Below, piece after piece: positions 1 through 10,012 of a stretch of DNA of 10,012 nt (positions are counted from its first letter, which is position 1; every line of letters begins with the position of its first letter). The stretch is taken from the NCBI GenBank assembly GCA_028698765.1, contig JAQVVW010000027.1, positions 1-10,012 on the forward strand, in the 5' to 3' direction. Source of the stretch: Methanoculleus sp. Its GTDB lineage: Archaea; Halobacteriota; Methanomicrobia; Methanomicrobiales; Methanoculleaceae. A program made the translations under genes and the position numbers. Under the pieces are notes generated by a model. It was not told the origin of the DNA and ran no database searches. It saw only the letters and a program-made list of their open reading frames with translations.

Positions 1-82
1 CCGGGACTCTGCCATTACTTCGCAACCCATAAGGAACAGAAGAGCGAGTAATCCTGGCAAGAGAGGGCAGGGCTACGACATC

Positions 83-105
83 GGTAAATCCGGGATTTAT
101 TTACC
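83..105. repeat. 7-bp perfect inverted repeat (stem-loop)
   Basis: GGTAAAT at 83-89 and ATTTACC at 99-105 are perfect complements around a 9-base loop. The loop and right flank can form a competing CCGGG/CCCGG pairing. It lies about 30 bp after the possible end of an upstream gene, so it might help end transcription, but there is no T-run after it on the plus strand. The function is a guess. Confidence 0.35.
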
Positions 106-157
106 CCGGCGAGGCCAGACGCAGCCGCAGATCTGATCCGGGCGACCCTCCCGCGGG

Positions 158-165
158 TATTTTAT
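158..165 (+). promoter_or_regulatory. TATA-like box upstream of the cysteine-cluster gene
   Basis: TATTTTAT stands out from GC-rich surroundings. Archaeal transcription usually starts about 25 bp downstream of the TATA box, which would be near 187 and would give a leader of roughly 50 bases before the ATG at 239. This rests on base composition and position only. Confidence 0.35.
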
Positions 166-238
166 CTCTCCAATGATTACGATTGGATAACGAGCATGTT
201 TGTACACCAATCGCCCGGCATCCGGGGAGACGGTCGCC

Positions 239-769
239 ATGGCATGTAGGTGCTGCCAGTGCGGCAGCTGCTGCAGCAGCATGAGAGACGCCCACACGGT
301 CATCGAAGAGCGCGGTGACTACACCTTCGTCGTCCCCAACGCCTACAGCGGGGACGTGAAGGAGGTGCGGGTCGACCCGGACAAGATCGCCCTCTTCGAG
401 GATGCGAGCAGCATCGTAGAACCACCGGACGCATGCCCCTTCCTGAGGTTCGAAACCCCCCGGGATTCTCCTGCTCCGTCCCACGGGAACATCGCATTCG
501 ACGGAAAGAAGGGAAAGGCATGGTGCACGGTCTACCTGACGCGCCCCGAGATCTGCCGCGATTACTGCTGCTGGCGTCTCCTCATCCTCGATTCGGAGGG
601 CAGAAGGGCCGGGCGCGTCATGTACCGGACAACGTTCATCCCGGACACCGACGAACTCCGCCGGCTCTGGGAACAGGTGCAGCCGACGCTGAACGGGCTC
701 TCCGGCACGGAATGGGACGATGCCGTCCTCGATATCCTCACGGCGGCCGGATACCGGGTTCGCCGGTAA
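239..769 (+). CDS. YkgJ-family cysteine cluster protein
   Basis: This is a 176-residue cytosolic protein of the YkgJ-type CxxCxxCC family, annotated as zinc- or iron-chelating; the exact role of the family is not established. The N-terminus has a dense cluster (Cys3, 5, 6, 8, 11, 12 in the motif CCQCGSCC). It is followed by the usual CPFL (Cys66), a Cys at 96, and the RPEICRDYCCW block (Cys106, 110, 111). These are the spaced cysteines expected to form the metal site. I chose the ATG at 239 because GGGGAG lies just upstream at suitable spacing and the cysteine motif then starts near the N-terminus, as is typical. A TTG at 200 would add 13 residues without family resemblance. No membrane segment or signal peptide is seen. 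The gene appears to be alone, with 143 bp before the next gene. The family call is solid; the function is unknown. Confidence 0.85.
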   Translation: MACRCCQCGSCCSSMRDAHTVIEERGDYTFVVPNAYSGDVKEVRVDPDKIALFEDASSIVEPPDACPFLRFETPRDSPAPSHGNIAFDGKKGKAWCTVYLTRPEICRDYCCWRLLILDSEGRRAGRVMYRTTFIPDTDELRRLWEQVQPTLNGLSGTEWDDAVLDILTAAGYRVRR

Positions 770-801
770 CTGCCGGGATTGCAGGTGCTCCCGCCGCCTG
801 C

Positions 802-831
802 GGGTGAAAGGAGATAGGGTGAAAGGAGATA
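802..831 (+). repeat. Perfect 15-bp tandem duplication
   Basis: The unit GGGTGAAAGGAGATA occurs at 802-816 and again, with no mismatch and no spacer, at 817-831. Each copy contains a Shine-Dalgarno-like AAGGAG, but no start codon follows at usable distance, so they are not obvious ribosome binding sites for an annotated gene. It lies in the 143-bp gap between the cysteine-cluster gene and the secreted-protein gene. A recent slippage duplication or a pair of protein-binding sites would both fit. Confidence 0.8.
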
Positions 832-870
832 GGAACCCTTTCCATCACCTGCCGGCGATCTACACAACCC

Positions 871-878
871 TGATATAC
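871..878 (+). promoter_or_regulatory. Possible TATA box of the secreted-protein gene
   Basis: TGATATAC at 871-878 is the only TATA-like stretch shortly before the gene at 913. Transcription would begin around 900, leaving a very short leader that still includes the GAGGT at 901-905. The match to the archaeal consensus is modest. Confidence 0.3.
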
Positions 879-912
879 CGGGATAGCAACAAGCCCGGCC
901 GAGGTCGAGCAT

Positions 913-1779
913 ATGAGAGCATCGATGAGACTGCTGGCGGGCTGTTGCCTGTTGCTGATGGTGTGCCAGGTCTCCGCCATGGCCCCGCCCGCCTGGGCAG
1001 AGCCCGGAACGAAGGTGACGTATCAGGCCGCGCTGACCCCGTACTACGCCATCGACCCCGACGATCCGATGGACCGGTGGGTGCATCACGAGGGGACCGG
1101 GGTATTCGGGTATCTGACCGACACGATCACCGCCGGGGACGCCGCGGGTGGCTATTCCGGCGACTCGGTGGTGGTGAGCGGCATCGACAGGGGCACCCTG
1201 TACACGGGTTCGTGGTCATACCTTCCGGGGGATCCGGGGATGGGGCTCGTACCGTTCTGGGTCGACCTCGACAGCCCCGCCTTCAGCCCGGAGTTCATGG
1301 TTCTTGAGGGGCCGCTGGAACTTGCCGGCACGGAATGGGATGCGCAGGCGTATTACTACGCAAACCTCGGGACGAGTTTTGACATACGCTACGTCGTCGA
1401 TAAGGAGAGCGGCCTCGTGTTGATCAAGAACGCGGGGCTGACGGGCGCAAACAACCAGATGCAGAGGGAGATCTACATCCTGCAGTCGCTTGAGACCGGA
1501 TACCCCGGAAGCGGTATGCCGGAGAACGACACCTTCCCTATCATCTGGAACTCCGCGCACCCGGAGCGCGGTATGCCGGAGAACGTTACCCGGCCTATCA
1601 CCTGGAGTTCCGGGCACCCCGGAAGCGGTATGCCGGAGAACATCACCCGGCCTATCGGTGAAATGGTCGGGAACTCCGGGTGGGCAATGAGGCATTTGGG
1701 GGAGGAAACTCCACCCCTTCACCATGCCTCTCACGATGGCACTGAACATCCCTACAATCCTGGAGGTGACGGGAACTAA
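913..1779 (+). CDS. Secreted protein of unknown function with C-terminal sequon repeats
   Basis: This is a 288-residue protein that I do not recognise as a named family. Residues 1-29 form a classical Sec signal peptide: Arg2 and Arg6, a hydrophobic core LLAGCCLLLMVC, and an AWA site before Glu30. The mature protein should therefore be outside the cell. Residues 30-195 look like a beta-rich globular domain with many aromatics and a KESGLVLIKNAG turn, somewhat like lipid-binding or lipoprotein-carrier beta sheets, but this is only an impression. Residues 197-251 are three repeats of about 19 residues, each with GMPEN followed by Asn-x-Thr. The tail is rich in His, Gly and Pro. There is no C-terminal membrane anchor. 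GAGGT at 901-905 is a suitable ribosome binding site for the ATG at 913; Met5 is an alternative start. The gene converges on the HEAT-repeat gene across 125 bp. Confidence 0.8.
   Translation: MRASMRLLAGCCLLLMVCQVSAMAPPAWAEPGTKVTYQAALTPYYAIDPDDPMDRWVHHEGTGVFGYLTDTITAGDAAGGYSGDSVVVSGIDRGTLYTGSWSYLPGDPGMGLVPFWVDLDSPAFSPEFMVLEGPLELAGTEWDAQAYYYANLGTSFDIRYVVDKESGLVLIKNAGLTGANNQMQREIYILQSLETGYPGSGMPENDTFPIIWNSAHPERGMPENVTRPITWSSGHPGSGMPENITRPIGEMVGNSGWAMRHLGEETPPLHHASHDGTEHPYNPGGDGN
1501..1665 (+). repeat. Three in-frame 57-bp repeats inside the secreted-protein gene
   Basis: Units begin at 1501, 1558 and 1615. The first two are exactly 57 bp (19 codons); the third is cut short after about 17 codons. 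All three share GGTATGCCGGAGAAC encoding GMPEN, then Asn-Asp-Thr, Asn-Val-Thr or Asn-Ile-Thr, then a Pro-Ile pair (FPII, RPIT, RPIG). Units two and three keep identical Arg-Pro-Ile coding. The high identity suggests recent internal duplication. Confidence 0.85.
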
Positions 1780-1904
1780 GAGGGAATTCCGGGATCTTGT
1801 CGAGGCGACAATCGAGGAGCGGGATCTCCCGTTCCCGGAACTCCTGCGAGAGGTGGAAAGGCTCCCGGTAGAAGATGGTAATCGAGCGCGGCCCCGAGGG
1901 AGAC
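1780..1904. other. Convergent gap between the secreted-protein and HEAT-repeat genes
   Basis: The two genes end facing each other across 125 bp. The stretch contains short inverted repeats that could help end transcription, the clearest being TTGTCG/CGACAA at 1797-1802 and 1806-1811 and CGGGA/TCCCG a little further on. There is no T-rich run, so no terminator is called. A 68-codon plus-strand reading frame (1724-1930) crosses the gap but lacks a well-placed ribosome binding site. Confidence 0.4.
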
Positions 1905-4900
1905 TTATGCTCTATGGTCGGGTCGGATAACAGGTCGCTCCCGGATCCGCTCCACCGCATCCTCGGCGGCTTTCCGGGCGTACCAGTCCTCATCGTCGAA
2001 GATGCGCTCGAGGGGCGCAATCGCCCGTGCATCCCCGATCTCGGCGAGCACATCCGCCGCACGTTTCCGGACATCGCCGTCCGGGTCGTCGAGCGCGGAG
2101 ACGACCGGCTCCACTGCCGGGGTTCCTATGGCGATGAGCGCCGCTCCCGCCTCCCGCCGGACGCTGTAGTAGTCGTCGTGGAGGAGACTCATGAGCCCCG
2201 GAGTCGCACGCGGGTCGCCGATCTCGCCGAGGATCATCGCCGCCCGCCGCCGGATGCTGTCGTCGCGGTCGTCGAGCACCGCGAGCAGCGGCTTGATCGC
2301 GGCCGCTCCCACCCGGGCGAGATCACCCCATCGCTCCTTTGCGATCAGGTAGACGACCGTCTCCCCCCCCACCGCGGGCGACCAGCCCAGGCGGTCGAGG
2401 GCGTCCGCAGCCCCGGCACGGACGCGGAAATGCTCATCGGTGAGCGCACCGGGGAGCAGGCGTGCCGCGGGCTCGCCGATCAGCACAAGCGCCGCCACCG
2501 CACCCTTCCGGGACGCATCGTTCCCGTCCCTGAGAACCCGCAGGAGCGGCAGGACCGCCGGTTCGCCCATCATGCCGAGCGCCCGCACCACGACGCGCCC
2601 CAGGCGCTGGTCGTCGTGCAGGAGCGCATCGATCAGCGGTTCGATGGTCGCCGGGTTCCCGATCTTGCCGAGCGTCGCGGCCGCTCCCATCCGGATCGTC
2701 GGGGGGGCAGCGCGGAGAGCCCGGACCAGCGGTTCGACTGCCGGATCTCCGATGCCGACGAGCGCCCGCGCCGCACCCAGGCGGATCTGCCAGTCGCGGT
2801 CCTGGAGAGCCTCGATGAGCGGCAGGACCGCCGCTTCGCCCATCATCTTGAGCGCCTCGACCGCCTTTCTCTGCGCGCCGTCCTGTTCGGTGCGGAGCTC
2901 GTAGATCAGCCTCTCGACTGCGGGAGCCCCGATCAGCCCGAGCGCCCGCGCCGCACCAATCTGGATTGCGCTGTCGGGGTCGTTGAGCGTCCGGATCAAC
3001 GGTCCGACCGCACCGGGCCCGATCCCGGCGACGAAAGTCCACTGTTCCTTCGCGATCAGGTAGCTGACGGTCTCGCTCTCGGTCCGCGGCTCCCATCCGT
3101 TCCTGCCGAGAACCTCGGCCGCGCCCAGCCGCACCAGGTAGCGTTCATCGTTGAGCGCCTGCACAAGCAGATCGACGACCGGGCCCCCGAGGCGGGTGAG
3201 GGCATCGATCGCCCCGAGCCTGAGGGTATCGTCGGGGTGTCCCAGGGCCCCGATAAGCAGGGCGGCAGCCGCTTCCCCAAGACCGGTGAGCAGATCTCCC
3301 GCCCGCTGCCGGATCAGGGCTTCGTCGTTCCCGAGCGCCTCGATCAGCGCATCGAAGGCCTCCATCCCCATCGCCTCGAGGATCCCGACAGCGGTCTGTC
3401 CGGTCTCTGGATGCCCGAGAACCGGGACGAGCGCGCCGGCCGCAGGACTCCCGATCCGGACAAGCACTCCGGCAGCCGTCTTGCGAAGCCGGGTCTTCTC
3501 CAGGGCCTGGATCAGCGGTTCCACTGCAGCTTCGCCGATTCTAACAAGCGTCTCTTCCGCCTGCTCGCGGAGCGCTTTTCTGCCGAGCAGGCGGATCAGG
3601 GAGGGGACCGCAGGGGTCCCGATGCCGACGAGCGCCTTCATCGATCCGGCCTGCACCGCCGGATCAAGGTCACCGAGCCGCGTCACCAGGGGATCGACGG
3701 CGGGAGCGCCGAGACTCACGATCTCCGGCCATCGCTGCAGCGCGATCAGGTGGACGATCTCCTCCTCCGTCCCCCCTTCGGGAACCCACCCGAGCTGCTC
3801 GAGTACCCTCGCGGCTCCCATGCGGATCGACGAGGACTCGTTGCTGAGTGCCCCGGCAAGCGGTTTGAGTGTCGGAGCACCGATCCCGGCGAGCGCCGCC
3901 GTCGCTCCTCCCTGACCGTCGCCCTCCTCGCCGAGGAGAGGGATGAGGGCGTCTATCGCGGGCGCACCGATCCCGATCAGGGCGTCGACGGCTTTTCGGT
4001 GAAGACGGTCTTCACCGGCCCTGACGAGTTCGACGATGGCCGGAACTGCCTCAGACGTCCCGAGTCGGCCCAGAACTTCGACGGCGCTCTCCCGGGCGGC
4101 CCCGACCCCGCCTTCAAGCAGTTCGAGGACGGGCGCCACGGCCGGTTCCCCAATGGCAACAAGCGCATCCGCCGCCACCGGGGCGACGTCCTCGTCGGCG
4201 AGGGCACCCACGAGCGGCCCTACCGCCGTCGGATCGCCGATCTCGCCGAGCGTCGCTGCAGCCTCGCAGCGTATACGGGCGTCATCGGCGTTGAGCATCC
4301 GGATCAGCGGCTCAACGGCCGGTGAGCCCATCAGGGCGAGTTCCATCCACTCCTCCCGGGCAATCAGGTACCAGGCCCGTTCAGAGTCGCTCCAGGGTTC
4401 CCAGTTCATCCCGCCGAGAATTTCAGCGACCTGGGACCGGATGCGGGATCGCCTGGATGTCAGCGACTGGATCAGGGCCGGTACCGCCGGCTCGCCGAGC
4501 GCACCAAGAAGATCTAAAAGTGCCTCCTGCGCCTCCCCGTCCGTGGAGTCCAGAGCGCGGATGCACGCCTCCGCCGCCGGTTCGCCGATCTTCGCCAGAG
4601 CCCCCGCCGCAGTCCTGCGAAGGGAAGGGACAGAGAGGAGCCCGATGAGCGGCTCGACCGCAGGAAAACCGATCTCCGTGAGCGCCATGGCCGCCAGCGG
4701 GCGGATCTCGTCGCCTGCTTCGTGCAGAAGTTCGACCAGGGGATCGACCGCGGCCCCGCCGATCTCCCCGAGAGTCCGGGCGGCGTTCCACCACACCCCC
4801 TTATCGGGGGACTTCAGGATGCGGATGAGGGGCTCGATCGCGGTCTCACCGTAATCCGCAACGTCGAGCCACGCCTCGTCGGCGATGAGGTAGCGTATCG

Positions 4901-6188
4901 CACCGGTGTCGTCGGGGGCTTTCCACCCGAGTTCACGGAGGACGGAGGCTGCCGACCTTCGGATGCTCCGCTCAGGCGCATCGATGGCCTCGATGAGGAA
5001 GGGGATTGCTTCGTCGCCGATCTCCCGGAGCGCGTAGCGGGAGCCGAACTGCACCTCGCCGTCGCCGTCGGCAAGCGCTGCGATGAGAGGCGGCACGGCG
5101 GGGCTCCCGATGCGCACGAGCGTGGCAGCCGCCCCGATCTGCGCCGTAACGTCCCCAAGCGCAGCAATCAACGCAGGGATCGATTCCTCGCCGATCAGGG
5201 TAAGGGCTTCGGCGATGCACCACCGCTCCCCGTCGCCCGCAAGAGCAAGGGCCCGGACCAGGGGCTCCACGGCGTCGGCCCCACGGTCTGCGACGGCACT
5301 GACGGCACGTCCGCGAACCCCGGCATCGTCGCTCCCGAGGTCATCGATGAGCGACTCTATCGGGCGTTCAGCGTCTCCCCCCGCAGCCTCAGATAGGGGA
5401 GGGAGAGAGGCGGTCACGGCCGCCAGATCTTCTTCTGAGAGATCGAGTTCGGCAAGCCCGGAAAAGGGGTCGAAATCTCCGTCCTCGAACCCTGGCATCT
5501 GCATGAGTTCATCGGCGCCGAGGGAGGCAGGGTGCGGTGCAGGCTGGTCGTCCGGAACACCGGGCATGCCGTCATCCAGGAGTGAAAAGTCCGGGAGGTC
5601 TTCTGCCGCAGGATCCTCCGTGAGGAAGAGAGCATCGACTTCGTCCGGGGAGGCGAGACCCCCGGGGCCATCCGCAGGAGGTTCCGCCGGGGAAGGAACG
5701 GTAACCGTTTCGCCCGGCGAGATGAGTTCGTCGAACCGCCGGAGGGCATCGGGGATCTTCTCGAGCCTATCGAGGACGCTCGTCCCATCGTCGGCCGGGG
5801 CATGCCTGCGCGGGGGGGCCTCAGCAGACAAACCAGCAATCGGGGGTTCGGGGTCGTCCTTGCTATCGCTCTCTTCGGTATTCTTCTTTATCCAGTGCCT
5901 GATGAGCGAAGAGCCGTTCGGGCCGAAGAGCCCGGGCAGGCAAACGATGGGAAATGCGGATTCAACCGCCGACATATCCGGCACTCCCGCACCGGGCAGG
6001 AGAAGGAACAGGCATACGATCCCGAAGATCGCGCAGAACAGGGCACGTAACGCCGGAAGAGGTACACGGCAGTCACCGGGCACGCCCCCATCTGCGGATA
6101 CCGGCAGCACCATCACTACATCGCGGATTGCGACTGCCGGATCGGTGGATGGACTGTCCGAGAATGCTCGTCGGCCCTCGATGCGCAT
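1905..6188 (-). CDS. Giant HEAT-repeat (PBS-lyase HEAT-like) solenoid protein with N-terminal hydrophobic segment
   Basis: This 1427-residue protein is almost entirely alpha-solenoid. From about residue 275 to 1418 I count about 34 HEAT units of about 30 residues with the signature PAVEPLI.AL...VR..AA.ALG.IG. Such solenoids are protein-binding scaffolds; the partner is unknown and no catalytic motif is visible. Five Trp-Pro...YLIA...Trp cassettes (Trp422, 596, 801, 1032, 1269) divide the array into larger modules. Residues 46-66 are hydrophobic enough for a membrane segment or signal anchor. Residues 105-270 are an acidic, proline-rich linker. The start at 6188 has AAGGT six bases upstream and an AT-rich promoter island just behind it. 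An internal Met72 (codon at 5975) also has a good GGGAG eight bases upstream and would drop the hydrophobic segment, giving an N-terminus containing GLFGPN, which I recall from cytosolic HEAT proteins of methanogens. The reading frame is certain; the start and location in the cell are not. Confidence 0.9.
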   Translation of the reverse strand: MRIEGRRAFSDSPSTDPAVAIRDVVMVLPVSADGGVPGDCRVPLPALRALFCAIFGIVCLFLLLPGAGVPDMSAVESAFPIVCLPGLFGPNGSSLIRHWIKKNTEESDSKDDPEPPIAGLSAEAPPRRHAPADDGTSVLDRLEKIPDALRRFDELISPGETVTVPSPAEPPADGPGGLASPDEVDALFLTEDPAAEDLPDFSLLDDGMPGVPDDQPAPHPASLGADELMQMPGFEDGDFDPFSGLAELDLSEEDLAAVTASLPPLSEAAGGDAERPIESLIDDLGSDDAGVRGRAVSAVADRGADAVEPLVRALALAGDGERWCIAEALTLIGEESIPALIAALGDVTAQIGAAATLVRIGSPAVPPLIAALADGDGEVQFGSRYALREIGDEAIPFLIEAIDAPERSIRRSAASVLRELGWKAPDDTGAIRYLIADEAWLDVADYGETAIEPLIRILKSPDKGVWWNAARTLGEIGGAAVDPLVELLHEAGDEIRPLAAMALTEIGFPAVEPLIGLLSVPSLRRTAAGALAKIGEPAAEACIRALDSTDGEAQEALLDLLGALGEPAVPALIQSLTSRRSRIRSQVAEILGGMNWEPWSDSERAWYLIAREEWMELALMGSPAVEPLIRMLNADDARIRCEAAATLGEIGDPTAVGPLVGALADEDVAPVAADALVAIGEPAVAPVLELLEGGVGAARESAVEVLGRLGTSEAVPAIVELVRAGEDRLHRKAVDALIGIGAPAIDALIPLLGEEGDGQGGATAALAGIGAPTLKPLAGALSNESSSIRMGAARVLEQLGWVPEGGTEEEIVHLIALQRWPEIVSLGAPAVDPLVTRLGDLDPAVQAGSMKALVGIGTPAVPSLIRLLGRKALREQAEETLVRIGEAAVEPLIQALEKTRLRKTAAGVLVRIGSPAAGALVPVLGHPETGQTAVGILEAMGMEAFDALIEALGNDEALIRQRAGDLLTGLGEAAAALLIGALGHPDDTLRLGAIDALTRLGGPVVDLLVQALNDERYLVRLGAAEVLGRNGWEPRTESETVSYLIAKEQWTFVAGIGPGAVGPLIRTLNDPDSAIQIGAARALGLIGAPAVERLIYELRTEQDGAQRKAVEALKMMGEAAVLPLIEALQDRDWQIRLGAARALVGIGDPAVEPLVRALRAAPPTIRMGAAATLGKIGNPATIEPLIDALLHDDQRLGRVVVRALGMMGEPAVLPLLRVLRDGNDASRKGAVAALVLIGEPAARLLPGALTDEHFRVRAGAADALDRLGWSPAVGGETVVYLIAKERWGDLARVGAAAIKPLLAVLDDRDDSIRRRAAMILGEIGDPRATPGLMSLLHDDYYSVRREAGAALIAIGTPAVEPVVSALDDPDGDVRKRAADVLAEIGDARAIAPLERIFDDEDWYARKAAEDAVERIRERPVIRPDHRA
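1935..5366 (-). repeat. Coding array of about 34 degenerate HEAT repeats in higher-order modules
   Basis: Approximately 90-bp coding units recur across this span. Cassettes of about 26 extra residues are inserted after units 5, 10, 16, 23 and 30. Distances between the first tryptophans of successive cassettes are 174, 205, 231 and 237 residues, close to steps of one HEAT unit. Four units follow the last cassette. The unit count was made by eye and could be off by one or two. Confidence 0.8.
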
Positions 6189-6270
6189 AATGAAACCTTT
6201 ACGTCTAAAAATTAAATATGTTTGTTTTTCTTGCCCGGGAAATAAAAAGAATCATTATATATCACCTATT
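6189..6270 (-). promoter_or_regulatory. AT-rich promoter island of the HEAT-repeat gene
   Basis: Read on the minus strand, two TATA-like boxes are visible. ATATATAAT lies at 6254-6262, with transcription expected near 6232 and a leader of about 44 bases. CATATTTAAT lies at 6211-6220 and would give an almost leaderless transcript beginning next to the ATG at 6188. The AAGGT before the ATG favours the box at 6254-6262. The island contrasts sharply with the GC-rich coding DNA on both sides. Confidence 0.5.
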
Positions 6271-6496
6271 TCAGGAACGAATATTAGCTTCCCGGGCCCC
6301 CGAGGTCACCGGGCAGCGTCTGCATCGGACTGCCAGGGCATACCAGGCGGCGGTCGCGGGTATGGTGCCGCACAGATCGCTATAGCGGCGTGACCGGTCA
6401 ACCGCTATCTGCGGCAGGGGCGGGGAGATCCGGTGAAGTAAGGCCTTGCTACCGGATTAACCCCATCAGCGCCTGAATGCAGCCACGAACGGCCGA
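6271..6496. other. Intergenic stretch between the DUF6573-HTH and HEAT genes
   Basis: Together with the promoter island this makes a 308-bp gap. Apart from the palindrome cluster at 6368-6414 I see no gene. Reading frames that cross it are shadows of the flanking genes, lack ribosome binding sites, or change composition abruptly. Confidence 0.5.
6368..6414. repeat. Nested palindrome cluster downstream of the DUF6573-HTH gene
   Basis: Within 47 bp there are two perfect 10-bp palindromes, CGCTATAGCG (6378-6387) and TGACCGGTCA (6391-6400). There is also a perfect 7-bp stem, ATAGCGG (6382-6388) with CCGCTAT (6402-6408), that encloses the second palindrome, and outer partial arms CCGCACAGAT / ATCTGCGG. 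It begins about 83 bases after the stop codon of the minus-strand gene at 6497. It may be a transcription terminator or mRNA-end structure for that gene, or a protein-binding site. Confidence 0.6.
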
Positions 6497-7102
6497 TCAG
6501 AACCCTTCGTTCATGATCCGGTCGAGTTCCGAGCGCTTGATCCGCCAGGTGCCTCCGCACTTGACCGCCGGAATCCGCGCCTCCCGGATGAACTCCCGGA
6601 TCCGGCCGGGGGTGAAGTTCAGAGTCGAAGCAACGTCGTCGACGGTGAGCATTGCGTCTCCCGTGGCATGGTGGTGGCCGCACCCGATCGTCTCCCAGTT
6701 CTCGTCCGGCAGCATGATGGTGATGACCGGCTCACCGCCGTCCCCCGGGGAGACCGCAGCCTTGAAGGTCAGGGTGGGAACAATGCCGTTCTGGTAGAGG
6801 CTGACCTGAAACTCGAACTCCTCCTCGGTCGTCGTGCGGGCTTTGGCCCTGAATGCATGAAGGGTGTCCCAGAGGTTCTCCGTAACGGTCTCCTGCGGGA
6901 TGTTCGGGAACGGAACCATGCTCTGTGCGGCCCGTGCCGAGACTGCAAGGGGGATCATGATGCCTATATCCCTTCCCATCCTGGTGATCTCGACCAGATC
7001 GCCGTCGTCGATGGCGTCCTGGCGCATCTTCCTCTGCTGTTCCGGGTCGGCCAGTCCCCAGATCTCTTCCGGTGTTCGCGATCGTAGTCTTCGTATCTCC
7101 AT
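6497..7102 (-). CDS. DUF6573-like domain fused to an excisionase/MerR-type helix-turn-helix
   Basis: This is a 201-residue predicted DNA-binding protein. Residues 27-140 match my memory of DUF6573, a family of small proteins common on plasmids and other mobile DNA. The resemblance includes DAIDDGDLVEIT, a GIMIPLAVS stretch, LWDTLHAFR, and the ending SPGDGGEPVITIMLPDENWE. Residues 152-197 are a winged-helix excisionase-type (HTH_17) domain: LTVDDVASTLNFTPGRIREFI, then IPAVKCGGTWRIKRSELD. A GCGHHHATGD linker joins them. I start at the ATG at 7102 because GGAGAG lies about nine bases upstream; a TTG at 7123 would read through that site. It is divergent from the CARF/PIN operon and may regulate it and itself. 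The helix-turn-helix call is strong, the DUF6573 call moderate, and the target is inferred. Confidence 0.82.
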   Translation of the reverse strand: MEIRRLRSRTPEEIWGLADPEQQRKMRQDAIDDGDLVEITRMGRDIGIMIPLAVSARAAQSMVPFPNIPQETVTENLWDTLHAFRAKARTTTEEEFEFQVSLYQNGIVPTLTFKAAVSPGDGGEPVITIMLPDENWETIGCGHHHATGDAMLTVDDVASTLNFTPGRIREFIREARIPAVKCGGTWRIKRSELDRIMNEGF

Positions 7103-7135
7103 GGGTGTATCTCTCCGGAACAATTTCGTGCTCTA

Positions 7136-7149
7136 CTATACCACTATAG
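7136..7149. promoter_or_regulatory. Inverted repeat CTATA-N4-TATAG, possible operator
   Basis: CTATACCACTATAG is a perfect 5-bp inverted repeat with a 4-bp spacer. It sits about 34 bp upstream of the ATG at 7102, about where transcription of that gene would begin if TAATAAAA at 7159-7166 is its TATA box. A repressor bound there would block the promoter, so self-regulation by the HTH protein is plausible but not shown. Confidence 0.4.
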
Positions 7150-7158
7150 GAAGATCGA

Positions 7159-7166
7159 TAATAAAA
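7159..7166 (-). promoter_or_regulatory. TATA-like box of the DUF6573-HTH gene
   Basis: On the minus strand this reads TTTTATTA within an AT-rich run. Expected transcription start is near 7137, giving a leader of about 35 bases that includes the GGAGAG at 7111-7116. Confidence 0.4.
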
Positions 7167-7380
7167 CATTTGTCAAATATTTCAGGGTATTTTCCGATTT
7201 CCTCTGCGTTAAAGGCATATTTTGGGAGCCCGGCTGGTGAAATTCCGCCATGATCGGGCATGAACCGCCATGCAGCCTCAGGAAAACCAGATAAAGGGCT
7301 AATAATCCAGAAATCATGAAGTATGGGGCCCGGAATACCGGCTGCCAACCCCGATCCCGGGAGGGCTGCTCCGACAAAGC

Positions 7381-7388
7381 CTATATAG
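7381..7388 (+). promoter_or_regulatory. TATA-like box CTATATAG of the CARF/PIN operon
   Basis: CTATATAG is a perfect palindrome centred about 26 bp upstream of the GTG at 7411. If it is the TATA box, transcription would start almost at the first codon, giving a leaderless message. The GGGAGAG at 7394-7400 could instead serve as a ribosome binding site for a longer transcript. The same half-sites (CTATA, TATAG) occur at 7136-7149. Confidence 0.45.
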
Positions 7389-7410
7389 CATCAGGGAGAG
7401 TCTTGAAGCA

Positions 7411-7923
7411 GTGATTGCCCCCGTGACCCCCGCTCCCGGTGACGCCTACATAACACTTCTCGGACGCTCGACATGGGCGCTCGTCAACGCTTACCACGCA
7501 GTCCTGCATGAGAAGGAGCTGCGCCCCGAACGGGTCATTATCGTCACCGAAGAACCCTACGCGCAGGAAGCATCGGTCGCGGCCAGGGCGATTGGAGTCG
7601 TCTCGGAGGGATACGGGTTCGCCCCCGCGATCGCAACGGAGATCCTGCCCGAAGCGGACTTCATAAGGGCCGGGCAGACGATCCGGGCGCTTGCCGGCGA
7701 TCTCATCGGGCAGGGACTCAACGTGGCGATCGACATCACCTCGGGCAGGAAGGTCACGGTCGCCGGGGCGCTCATCGCGGTCTCGGTCGCGGGGCTCGAT
7801 ATCCGGCACATCTATTATCTTGCCATGAAGAACACCGACGATGTTGCAAAGCCCTATATGATGATCCCCCACCAGATCCAGCAGATCCGGGATATCATGG
7901 AGGATGCGGGGGAGATGAGATGA
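7411..7923 (+). CDS. Stand-alone CARF-like (CRISPR-associated Rossmann fold) sensor protein
   Basis: This 170-residue protein looks like a single CARF domain, the Rossmann-type fold that binds cyclic oligonucleotide signals in type III CRISPR accessory proteins. Features are a first strand and loop LLGRSTWALVNAYHAVL (16-32), a second strand VIIVTEE (42-48), the conserved loop DITSGRK (108-114; the family motif is usually D-x-T-G/S-G-x-K), then VAGALIAVSVAGLDIRHIYYL. No nuclease or helix-turn-helix domain is attached, which is unusual. The GTG at 7411 is the first usable start; GTG 7423 is an alternative. Its stop overlaps the next start as ATGA (7920-7923), implying translational coupling and probably a physical complex with the PIN protein. 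No CRISPR array or cas gene is in the window. The fold call comes from motif recognition; the ligand is unknown. Confidence 0.75.
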   Translation: MIAPVTPAPGDAYITLLGRSTWALVNAYHAVLHEKELRPERVIIVTEEPYAQEASVAARAIGVVSEGYGFAPAIATEILPEADFIRAGQTIRALAGDLIGQGLNVAIDITSGRKVTVAGALIAVSVAGLDIRHIYYLAMKNTDDVAKPYMMIPHQIQQIRDIMEDAGEMR

Positions 7924-8927
7924 ACGACGCGGTCATCAGGGAGGACGAACTGCAGGTTCTCATCAACAGCCTCGACGAGATCCGCGTCACCTATCCGCTC
8001 TACGAAGGCGAGATCCTGGTCGCACGCCCCGAAGGCACCGGGTTCTCGCTAGAACTGCCCGCGTCCCGCGAGACCTTCAAAGACTGGGTTGCCGGATATG
8101 AGTCCGTCTCCGCGGAACTTCCTTCCTACGCCGATCTCCAGGAGTGCATGTTTGCAAGCGGGATAGCCCGCTACGTGAACCATGCCGCCTTTGAGTCGAT
8201 GCTCGCGTCGTATGGGCAGCTCAAGAAGGCCGTCTTCTTCGGCCTGGATACGAACCTCTTCTACCATGGGTTTGCATCGAACAACCCGCAGATCGAGCAC
8301 GCTTCATACCTGATCGTCGATACCGTCCGGGACGAGATCGCGTATGCCATCAACCGCAAGTACCCGGCAAAGACGATCGGTGAGATAGCAGCACTGGCGC
8401 CCGACTGCCGGGAGTACATCGGGGAACTCGAGAACAAGCGGACGAAGCGGTCACGCAAAGCGGCGTATCTTGCGCTGAAGGAGTACCGCATCATCCGTGA
8501 CCGGGCGACGGAGATCGCGGCCCCGGGCCCGCATACGCACCTCTCCGAGGAGAACGACTACAACATCGTCCGGGCGCTCCGCAAGTTCGAAGAAGAGCGG
8601 TATGCCCTCCCGGTCCTCCTGACCGCCGACACCTACATGGCCGATCTCTGCATGGCCGAGGGGCTCGAGTACTTTTACTTCGACCGCCCATATAGGTTAG
8701 AGACAACAGCCTGCACGGCGCCGGCGTTCCGGCGGCTGCTCTTCAACCTTGCCACCGTCTTCGGGTTCGTGAACTGCAACGAAATCGCGATCTTCGGCGA
8801 GTATGGAGGGAAGGGCAACGAACTCGACGAACTCAAAGTCCGTTTCCGGGACGATGGGGCGTACCGTGCATTCATGAGGGAACTCAAGATATGCAGGCAC
8901 CTTACGGCACTCGGCATACCGCGGTAG
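7920..8927 (+). CDS. PIN-domain nuclease-like protein, partner of the CARF protein
   Basis: This 335-residue protein has a PIN nuclease core in its middle. The acidic residues expected to bind metal are visible in order: Asp110 in FFGLDTNLF, Glu139 in DTVRDEI, Asp213 in ENDYNIVRAL, and Asp237 in VLLTADTYMADLC. PIN enzymes cut RNA, less often DNA, so this is a likely ribonuclease. The core (about 103-260) is longer than a typical toxin PIN of about 130 residues because of a basic insertion (ENKRTKRSRK, 171-180). Residues 1-100 and 261-335 match nothing I recognise; the C-terminal part contains IAIFGEYGGKGNELDELKVRF. The ribosome binding site GGGGGAG (7908-7914) precedes the ATG by five bases inside the CARF gene. 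No small antitoxin gene is adjacent, so a classical VapBC reading is unlikely. Activation by the CARF partner is inference. Confidence 0.75.
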   Translation: MNDAVIREDELQVLINSLDEIRVTYPLYEGEILVARPEGTGFSLELPASRETFKDWVAGYESVSAELPSYADLQECMFASGIARYVNHAAFESMLASYGQLKKAVFFGLDTNLFYHGFASNNPQIEHASYLIVDTVRDEIAYAINRKYPAKTIGEIAALAPDCREYIGELENKRTKRSRKAAYLALKEYRIIRDRATEIAAPGPHTHLSEENDYNIVRALRKFEEERYALPVLLTADTYMADLCMAEGLEYFYFDRPYRLETTACTAPAFRRLLFNLATVFGFVNCNEIAIFGEYGGKGNELDELKVRFRDDGAYRAFMRELKICRHLTALGIPR

Positions 8928-9586
8928 AGGCGGTCCTCTGCGACATGGACAACACCCTCTTTGACTTTGTCGGAGCGAAGCGGGAGGCGTGCCGGTGCGT
9001 CGTCGACTGCATCGGAACCGGCGACCCTGAAGCCCTCTTTTCCCAATTTCTCCGGGGGATTCACGGGTTCGAGGACTATGAGAACATACGCGATTATCTT
9101 GTAGACCTCGGGGTGTACGAGGAGCGGACGTTCGAGGTCTGCTGCCGCACCTACGAGGACGTGAAACTCGGCCTGGTCGAACCGTACCCGGGCGTCGAGG
9201 AGACGCTCCGGTGCCTCCGGGACGCCGGGATCTCTCTCGCGGTCGTGACCGACGCGGAGTCTCCCCATGCGCGCCGGCGGCTCGAGAAGACCGGGCTCAC
9301 CGATTACTTCGAGACGGTGGTGACCCCGGATATCTCGGGCAGGCGGAAACCGGAGCCTGACTCGCTCGTCTACGCCCTCCGGCGGCTCGATGCGGCTCCG
9401 GCGAGGGCGATGATGGTCGGCGACAGTCTGGTCCGCGACATCGCTCCGGGGAGGCGTCTGGGGATGGTGACCGCGTTTGCCGCCTATGGAGACTGGCGCG
9501 ACGGCAGTCCGGCGGAGATCGAGGCCGATATCGTTCTCGCAGAGTTCGCCGAACTCACCGGCCACCTGGGCATACCGCGCCGGTGA
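8891..9586 (+). CDS. HAD-superfamily hydrolase (phosphoglycolate-phosphatase-like)
   Basis: This 231-residue protein has all four HAD motifs: DMDNT with nucleophile Asp18 and Asp20; Thr120 in VVTDA; Lys153 in RRKPEPDS; and GDSLVRD with Asp178 and Asp183. The cap between residues 25 and 100 is helical (C1 type). The fold fits small phosphatases acting on phosphoglycolate, nucleotides or sugar phosphates; the substrate cannot be read from sequence. The ATG at 8891 has GAGGG ten bases upstream, and this start overlaps the PIN gene by 37 bp. No later start would keep the nucleophile motif. The overlap puts it in the CARF/PIN operon, so it might act on a nucleotide signal or product of that system, though co-transcribed housekeeping phosphatases are common. 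It ends at 9586, directly against the stop of the convergent gene. Confidence 0.88.
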   Translation: MQAPYGTRHTAVEAVLCDMDNTLFDFVGAKREACRCVVDCIGTGDPEALFSQFLRGIHGFEDYENIRDYLVDLGVYEERTFEVCCRTYEDVKLGLVEPYPGVEETLRCLRDAGISLAVVTDAESPHARRRLEKTGLTDYFETVVTPDISGRRKPEPDSLVYALRRLDAAPARAMMVGDSLVRDIAPGRRLGMVTAFAAYGDWRDGSPAEIEADIVLAEFAELTGHLGIPRR

Positions 9587-10012
9587 TCAGCGGAGCGGCG
9601 AGGGCGATTGCGATCCCGGCACCGGCAGGCGCGCCCCGTGGACAATGACCTGCTGGTCGGTCTCCAGGACCTTGCCGAGGATGATTGCTTTCCCCGCGGC
9701 CGTCATTGCAAAGACCGGGATCGACGTCCCGGCCTGCAGGAGCGCGGCCTTTGCTGCCTCATCCCGGATATGCTTTGAGGCGCAGGCGGTGATGAGATCG
9801 GCCGAGCGGGCCATCAGGGCGGCGTCCTCCCGCGAGATCCCGGTCGTGTGAACGGCGACGATCACGGCGTCGGGGAACCGCTCCCGGATAGCCGCCGCCT
9901 CGGCGGCAGCGGCGGTGGTCACGGCGATCCGGCGGTGGCCGAGTTCTGCCGCCAGGGCGACGCCGGCCGCCTGGTCGATCGCGGCGGTTGCCGGATCGAG
10001 GACGACGCCTCC
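9587..10012 (-). CDS. Methanogenesis marker protein 8, C-terminal part (runs off the right edge)
   Basis: The frame is open from the window edge to a TGA at 9587-9589, giving the last 141 residues of a longer protein. The Met of an apparent shorter frame at 9922 is an internal GTG; the family resemblance continues upstream of it. Key blocks are DPATAAIDQAAG near the visible start, an AVTTAAAAEA strand, VHTTGISREDA, ADLITACASKHIRD, and AGTSIPVFAMTAAGKAIIL near the end. These match my recollection of methanogenesis marker 8 (DUF2099), found in methanogens and linked to the coenzyme M reductase pathway, though its exact role is not settled to my knowledge. The last 20 residues are Pro/Ser-rich and look poorly conserved. 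Its stop codon touches the stop of the HAD gene. Confidence 0.78.
   Translation of the reverse strand, partial: GGVVLDPATAAIDQAAGVALAAELGHRRIAVTTAAAAEAAAIRERFPDAVIVAVHTTGISREDAALMARSADLITACASKHIRDEAAKAALLQAGTSIPVFAMTAAGKAIILGKVLETDQQVIVHGARLPVPGSQSPSPLR

Follow-up and report, generated by a model that had tools for sequence, protein, structure and literature searches.

We analysed a 10,012-nucleotide (nt) stretch of a Methanoculleus sp. genome (assembly GCA_028698765.1, contig JAQVVW010000027.1, positions 1 to 10,012), hereafter the window, in which genes for a CARF protein, a predicted PIN-domain nuclease and a HAD phosphatase follow one another on the forward strand. An initial annotation had described the first two as a split pair of sensor and nuclease. 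The features of this presumed operon are as follows.

7382..7387, forward strand: TATA box of a presumed operon promoter, centred about 26 nt ahead of the GTG of the CARF gene.
7411..7923, forward strand: single-domain CARF gene (CARF_m1), 170 residues, GTG start, assigned from the open reading frame (ORF) list, a PADLOC profile, an AlphaFold2 (AF2) model and Foldseek.
7920..7923, forward strand: ATGA overlap of the CARF stop and the PIN start, from the ORF list and the comparison of loci.
7920..8927, forward strand: predicted PIN-domain nuclease gene, 335 residues, ATG start, with D110, E139, D213 and D237.
8891..9586, forward strand: HAD-IA phosphatase gene, 231 residues, first start codon 37 nt inside the PIN gene, DMDNTL motif.

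The first protein had been read as single-domain and CARF-like from the stretches LLGRSTW...NAYHAVL and DITSGRK, both of which it contains, and the profile and structure comparisons agree with that reading. In a PADLOC profile search the protein matched CARF_m1--CARF (PDLC01971) with an E value of 1.3e-62 (208.6 bits), and its AF2 model (mean pLDDT 83.7) shows strands and helices alternating in a Rossmann-like CARF fold. All of the 50 Foldseek matches listed for this model were CARF proteins or CARF ring nucleases, the best among those listed being Cam1, Csm6 and Csa3; its fold likeness to the ring nuclease Crn1 is unspecific. The Pfam family Csa3_N scored below threshold (16.7 bits; cut-off, 27), no DNA-binding family was matched in Pfam or PADLOC, and NCBIfam gave no fitting model for either the CARF or the PIN protein. 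The name CARF_m1 presumably comes from the CARF classification of Makarova 2020. All 14 aligned upstream regions (chosen loci, the window included) share CTATATAG and, at the position corresponding to 7411, the GTG that starts CARF. The TATA box is centred about 26 nt ahead of this GTG, a distance that suggests transcription of the operon without a leader.

The PIN protein consists of an N-terminal region of about 100 residues followed by a PIN core at residues ~104-256, and its ORF (7920-8927) overlaps the CARF ORF (7411-7923) by the ATGA that had been noted initially. The mean pLDDT of its AF2 model was 94.4, and with this PIN fold both of the expected folds were found. Among solved chains the best structural match was SiRe_0806 of Sulfolobus islandicus (PDB 9jxw, and 9jxx with cA4), followed by PIN-domain chains, VapC among them; the alignment to SiRe_0806 covers 242 residues, the N-terminal region included. 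SiRe_0806 is a CARF part followed by a PIN-bearing part, and the two window proteins match these in turn, with identities of 19% for CARF and 16% for PIN. The order of CARF, N-terminal region and PIN is kept in the window, whereas the single chain is replaced by two chains from overlapping genes, with a HAD gene after them. The window proteins also match both halves of the PADLOC type CARF_m1--CARF_PIN (PDLC01973; models PDLC01971-01973), which unlike the window pair is a fusion, and to which the PIN protein scored only 64.9 bits. The two proteins map onto consecutive parts of SiRe_0806, so that the window pair is a known type of CARF-PIN protein divided over two chains. The initial annotation had proposed a ligand-controlled RNase working as a two-chain complex; the two-chain version is backed by the consecutive matches to SiRe_0806 and to the fused PDLC01973, and the rest of it we infer.

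Sequence comparison with the PDB was less informative than structure. With phmmer, neither window protein had a true relative among PDB sequences. A profile of the CARF alignment (A3; 55 of 116 CARF sequences, the oddly long P0225 omitted) gave mostly TAL-repeat matches at the top, taken as chance, and SiRe_0806 at E 0.0024, and that of the PIN alignment (A4; 65 of 111 PIN sequences, the window included) gave ribosomal matches only, at E values of at least 0.57.

We compared 60 loci, namely the window, 27 named contigs and 32 stretches from other genomes, leaving out one genome with the genes on two contigs (G070) and three with fragments (G093, G128 and G189). Both genes were on one strand in 56 of the 60, three of which repeat a genome (L032, L034 and L035), more than chance would give; the near-constant adjacency in related genomes on which the initial annotation made its reading depend was thus found. 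The other four are two contigs that end soon after CARF (L024 and L026) and two loci with PIN but without CARF (L112 and L117). A 4-nt overlap (ATGA or GTGA) forms the junction in 41 of the 56 paired loci, although three of these have an upstream start giving a longer ORF, and there the ATGA was read at the CARF stop; in L021 a gap of 240 nt separates the genes. The separation of sensor and nuclease, evident in the window as two ORFs, held throughout: none of 138 PIN proteins (both queries' own included) was of fusion-like length, by which fusions were sought, the longest being 391 residues. Split genes are the rule among near relatives.

The four acidic positions of the PIN active site that had been pointed out initially, D110, E139, D213 and D237, were unchanged in all 56 paired loci, as were N26, K114, Y136, I152 and P153 of CARF; D108, T110 and G112 of CARF were unchanged in 55. 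Among 23 Methanoculleus-type rows the median dN/dS was 0.21 for CARF and for PIN alike (249 and 252 of 253 comparisons kept, dS 0.05-1), and the pair is under purifying selection. The distance matrices of the two proteins correlated with r 0.985, a value reached in none of 2000 permutations, but we discarded this as evidence of binding because common descent alone suffices to give it.

PIN matches were found in 35 and CARF matches in 40 of 196 genomes of the phylum, and the PIN gene was present in 34 of 35 genomes of the genus, including all 24 of the more complete ones. The 27 named CARF contigs are mostly titled Methanoculleus, the rest being metagenome-assembled genomes of Methanomicrobiales, Methanomicrobiaceae or Euryarchaeota, and in most of them the order helix-turn-helix (HTH) protein, CARF, PIN, HAD, methanogenesis marker 8 recurs, which makes the window Methanoculleus-like; contigs that extend far enough carry the HEAT-repeat gene further upstream. 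We call the f9 genomes of the HAD-linked side (see below) Archaeoglobales-like: their CARF proteins share 58-87% identity with those from Archaeoglobus fulgidus or from an Archaeoglobales archaeon, and their PIN proteins share 58-76% with one from an Archaeoglobaceae archaeon. The PIN protein of G154 is identical to that of Methanofollis aquaemaris. A viral origin is unsupported, since none of 24 pattern matches in viral contigs was confirmed as a relative of the pair and phage records yielded none. One Archaeoglobales-like genome (G103) carries another PIN copy (L117 4597-5313) that is short at its N-terminus and has HAD but no CARF beside it; together with the PIN fragments in G093, G128 and G189, this copy is a sign of decay.

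The third gene, which the initial annotation had missed, encodes a HAD protein that matched Pfam PF00702 (E 1.2e-27) and scored above the cut-off of TIGR01549; in sequence searches the solved proteins nearest to it were HAD hydrolases of a general kind. A HAD gene lies downstream of PIN in 46 of the 56 paired loci, every one with the D-x-D-N-T-L motif, and these loci span Methanoculleus, Methanofollis and the Archaeoglobales-like genomes. Counted from its first start codon, HAD overlaps PIN by 37 nt in 33 of these loci and by some other length in 12; in the remaining one (G098) it begins 605 nt after PIN with another gene between. HAD was not found just downstream of PIN in six divergent loci and in G064, G192 and L028; L028 has a HAD gene at a distance of about 6 kb. 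In L023 the contig ends after the pair. A PIN tree placed 23 HAD-linked rows and the six divergent rows on opposite sides of a branch with 99/99 support; this tree holds 32 of the 56 pair loci, and long branches leave the order within the divergent side unsure. We suggest that the HAD protein acts in the CARF-PIN pathway, most likely by dephosphorylating the messenger, its breakdown products or nucleotides.

As the initial annotation had stated, the window holds no type III cas gene or array: no cas gene product was found among eight window proteins (chosen from 54 ORFs) scanned with Pfam, and the direct repeats of at least 23 nt with spacing up to 200 nt form no CRISPR-like array, falling in the HEAT-repeat gene described below and in one 57-nt tandem repeat. 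Among the 35 genomes of the genus the Cas10 palm was above cut-off in two, Csm1 in one and mCpol in none, so that 33 had no Cas10 palm match. The palm domain served as the Cas10 marker (39 matches, 38 of them above cut-off, in 196 genomes) in place of the weak Csm1 matches (86 of 196 genomes at E 0.001, 20 above cut-off) and the Cmr2 matches (37, 21 above). Cas1 was found in 125 of the same 196 phylum genomes. Because all eight Methanoculleus genomes of this set carry Cas1, CRISPR of a non-type-III kind is likely present in them. Cas10 occurred in 7 of 30 genomes with the pair and in 31 of 166 others (Fisher p 0.62, a descriptive value since the genomes are related). Genomes entered the group of 30 when both genes stood together. 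The pairless group took in G070, G165 (PIN only), G093, G128, G189 and eight genomes whose CARF-only matches were weak.

On the HAD-linked side, 19 of 24 pair genomes (including the HAD-less G064 and G192) had no Cas10 match; in the other five Cas10 lay 15.0 kb (G087), 36 kb (G133) and 754 kb (G004) from the pair or, in two, on another contig. On the divergent, HAD-less side, two of six pairs stood beside Cas10, at 4.6 and 5.1 kb (G123 and G168), and in Methanohalophilus sp. RSK (L110, reached through the identical protein P0226) the pair is flanked by genes for a RAMP protein and for Csm6. The L110 pair resembles that of the window in its two-gene layout with a 4-nt overlap but differs in lying inside a type III locus, in lacking HAD and in a PIN that groups with the divergent rows in the tree. 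Because of these Cas10 distances, one and the same two-gene layout can be said to sit within type III loci in the L110 lineage and apart from them in the lineage of the window. Type III ancillary genes are encoded with or near Cas10, an arrangement found neither among the window proteins scanned nor in the 24 HAD-linked relatives. Judged from relatives, the HAD-linked clade shows no tie to type III CRISPR. Of the two options in the initial annotation, the one independent of CRISPR defence is thus supported, as regards type III, by the relatives in the genus and by the 196 genomes.

Taken together, these data suggest that the CARF-PIN-HAD operon probably encodes a ligand-gated two-chain ribonuclease that mostly works without Cas10. 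Direct support comes from the genes, the predicted folds, the invariant catalytic residues, the linkage, the purifying selection and the lack of a Cas10 match in nearly all relatives examined; the complex, its ligand, activation and substrate, and the role of HAD we infer. The CARF protein would dimerise and bind an oligonucleotide messenger, and PIN, by way of its N-terminal region, would dock onto it; two chains would then do the work that SiRe_0806 does with one. Binding of the messenger would lead to RNA cleavage at the PIN site, and this in turn to slower growth or to a virus being stopped. HAD may act in the same pathway, most likely as the enzyme that dephosphorylates the messenger, the products of its breakdown, or nucleotides, and in Methanoculleus the messenger would normally not come from a type III Cas10. 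We more tentatively entertain a broader version, which we hold as somewhat less than an even prospect: the operon could serve methanogens and Archaeoglobales as a second-messenger system independent of CRISPR, in which CARF senses a non-Cas10 signal (RNA ends or an oligonucleotide of an unknown cyclase), PIN cuts RNA in trans and HAD erases the signal or its products. If true, the type III-linked pairs would be a single branch of a broader CARF-PIN system. CARF proteins have been studied mainly as receivers of Cas10 signals, and an intact CARF-nuclease pair in a Cas10-poor genus offers a concrete test of CARF signalling without CRISPR in archaea; the same pair bears on the source of the messenger and on its clearance. 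The split chains also allow sensor and nuclease to be purified apart and then mixed.

We asked how other explanations fare against these data. One special case of the ribonuclease reading is a responder to RNA damage, in which CARF would bind RNA ends such as tRNA fragments with a 2',3'-cyclic phosphate, as RtcR does, and PIN, HAD and, in some lineages, an RNase J-like protein would form an operon for RNA decay or repair. Such a system would not require Cas10, and a metallo-beta-lactamase protein of RNase J-like type (RMMBL domain; TIGR00649 at E 2e-18, below the model cut-off; for example L108 2284-3825) is encoded 2-5 nt before CARF in G014, G050 and G087, and at most 12.4 kb from the pair in all nine genomes where a match above 400 bits shares a contig with the pair. 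This gene was unmatched, however, in the eight Methanoculleus genomes of the sample and has strong matches in pairless genomes too, and the CARF protein scores highly as CARF_m1, with no RtcR model among its 19 PADLOC matches; we regard the responder as a minority possibility. The pair might instead be an orphan type III effector, needing cyclic oligoadenylate made by Cas10 and retained because horizontal transfer repeatedly brings in type III loci that are later lost. Both the divergent pairs next to Cas10 and the presence of Cas10 in two genus genomes and in five genomes of the HAD-linked side are as this would have it, and the CARF fold is nearest to binders of cA4 or cA6 among the Foldseek matches listed. 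Nevertheless we find it unlikely, given a PIN gene in 34 genus genomes with a Cas10 palm in only two, no association of pair and Cas10 over the 196 genomes, no same-contig Cas10 nearer than 15.0 kb on the HAD-linked side, and the dN/dS of 0.21.

A pair of the toxin-antitoxin kind, with PIN as a VapC-like toxin, CARF as its antitoxin and no small-molecule ligand, would account for the PIN fold with VapC chains among the structure matches and for the ATGA overlap. In three Archaeoglobales-like genomes (G035, G098 and G160) CARF is separated from PIN by an antitoxin gene of AbrB/MazE type and by a gene for a short PIN-domain protein. VapBC pairs combine a DNA-binding antitoxin with a short PIN toxin, however, and here the partner is a CARF protein and the PIN protein has 335 residues; it matches SiRe_0806 beyond the PIN domain, unlike a compact VapC, and an antitoxin would not need the invariant CARF motif residues. 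We consider this account distinctly unlikely. Least of all do we favour CARF as a ring nuclease that ends signalling, with PIN a separate effector or an unrelated neighbour, which the near-constant coupling of CARF to PIN, the fused PDLC01973 model and the layout of SiRe_0806 make very improbable.

CARF-PIN nucleases and CARF_m1 proteins are already known and are catalogued in PADLOC models; the accessible part of PMC4012209 mentions two PIN-linked CARF families, and that of PMC12669027 counts PIN RNases among the effectors of cyclic oligoadenylate. The apparent novelty lies in the conservation of a CARF-PIN-HAD operon and in its standing apart from Cas10; a search on Methanoculleus with CARF and CRISPR, which most subscription papers lay outside, found no paper. 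In the Chp phosphatases, as far as the accessible text of PMC12715507 describes them, a CARF-controlled HAD lowers ATP and IMP. There too HAD is tied to a CARF sensor, although HAD, transmembrane helices and CARF share one chain in type III loci, whereas HAD here is separate and beside a PIN nuclease. RtcR, according to the accessible text of PMC7790460, has a CARF domain that binds RNA ends without CRISPR, in an RNA-related operon, as may be the case here; it differs in being a CARF-AAA-HTH activator that binds tRNA fragments and has no PIN.

Several other genes lie near the pair. McrC and McrB-like AAA genes precede CARF in three Archaeoglobales-like genomes (G064, G103 and G155; L099 9794-12212, L103 10407-13993 and L108 4750-8594), and together with the RNase J-like gene these neighbours may point to RNA metabolism or defence. 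The VapBC-like inserts lie at L040 2499-3114, L047 812-1502 and L109 2972-3634 (antitoxin of L109 not scanned); that the inserted short PIN gene is the solved AF0591 was rejected, as no PDB sequence matched it at E 0.001. A protein of about 215 residues directly follows PIN in some loci (L102 11415-12068, L117 5297-5944 and L099 7668-8312) and has no Pfam match. In the window, a gene for an HTH_17/excisionase-type protein (6497-7123, reverse strand; DUF6573 match, E 2.6e-12) stands divergent to CARF and is upstream of it in 23 of the 27 named contigs; it is a possible regulator of the operon. An Rfam scan gave nothing at the gathering score, and the ORF at 913-1779, which matched no Pfam family at E 1, contains three 57-nt tandem repeats (19 residues each) at 1502-1672. 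The gene at 1905-6188 on the reverse strand encodes a HEAT-repeat protein of 1427 residues with 21 HEAT_2 stretches and is in place in 17 of the 27 named contigs, several of the others being too short to reach it.
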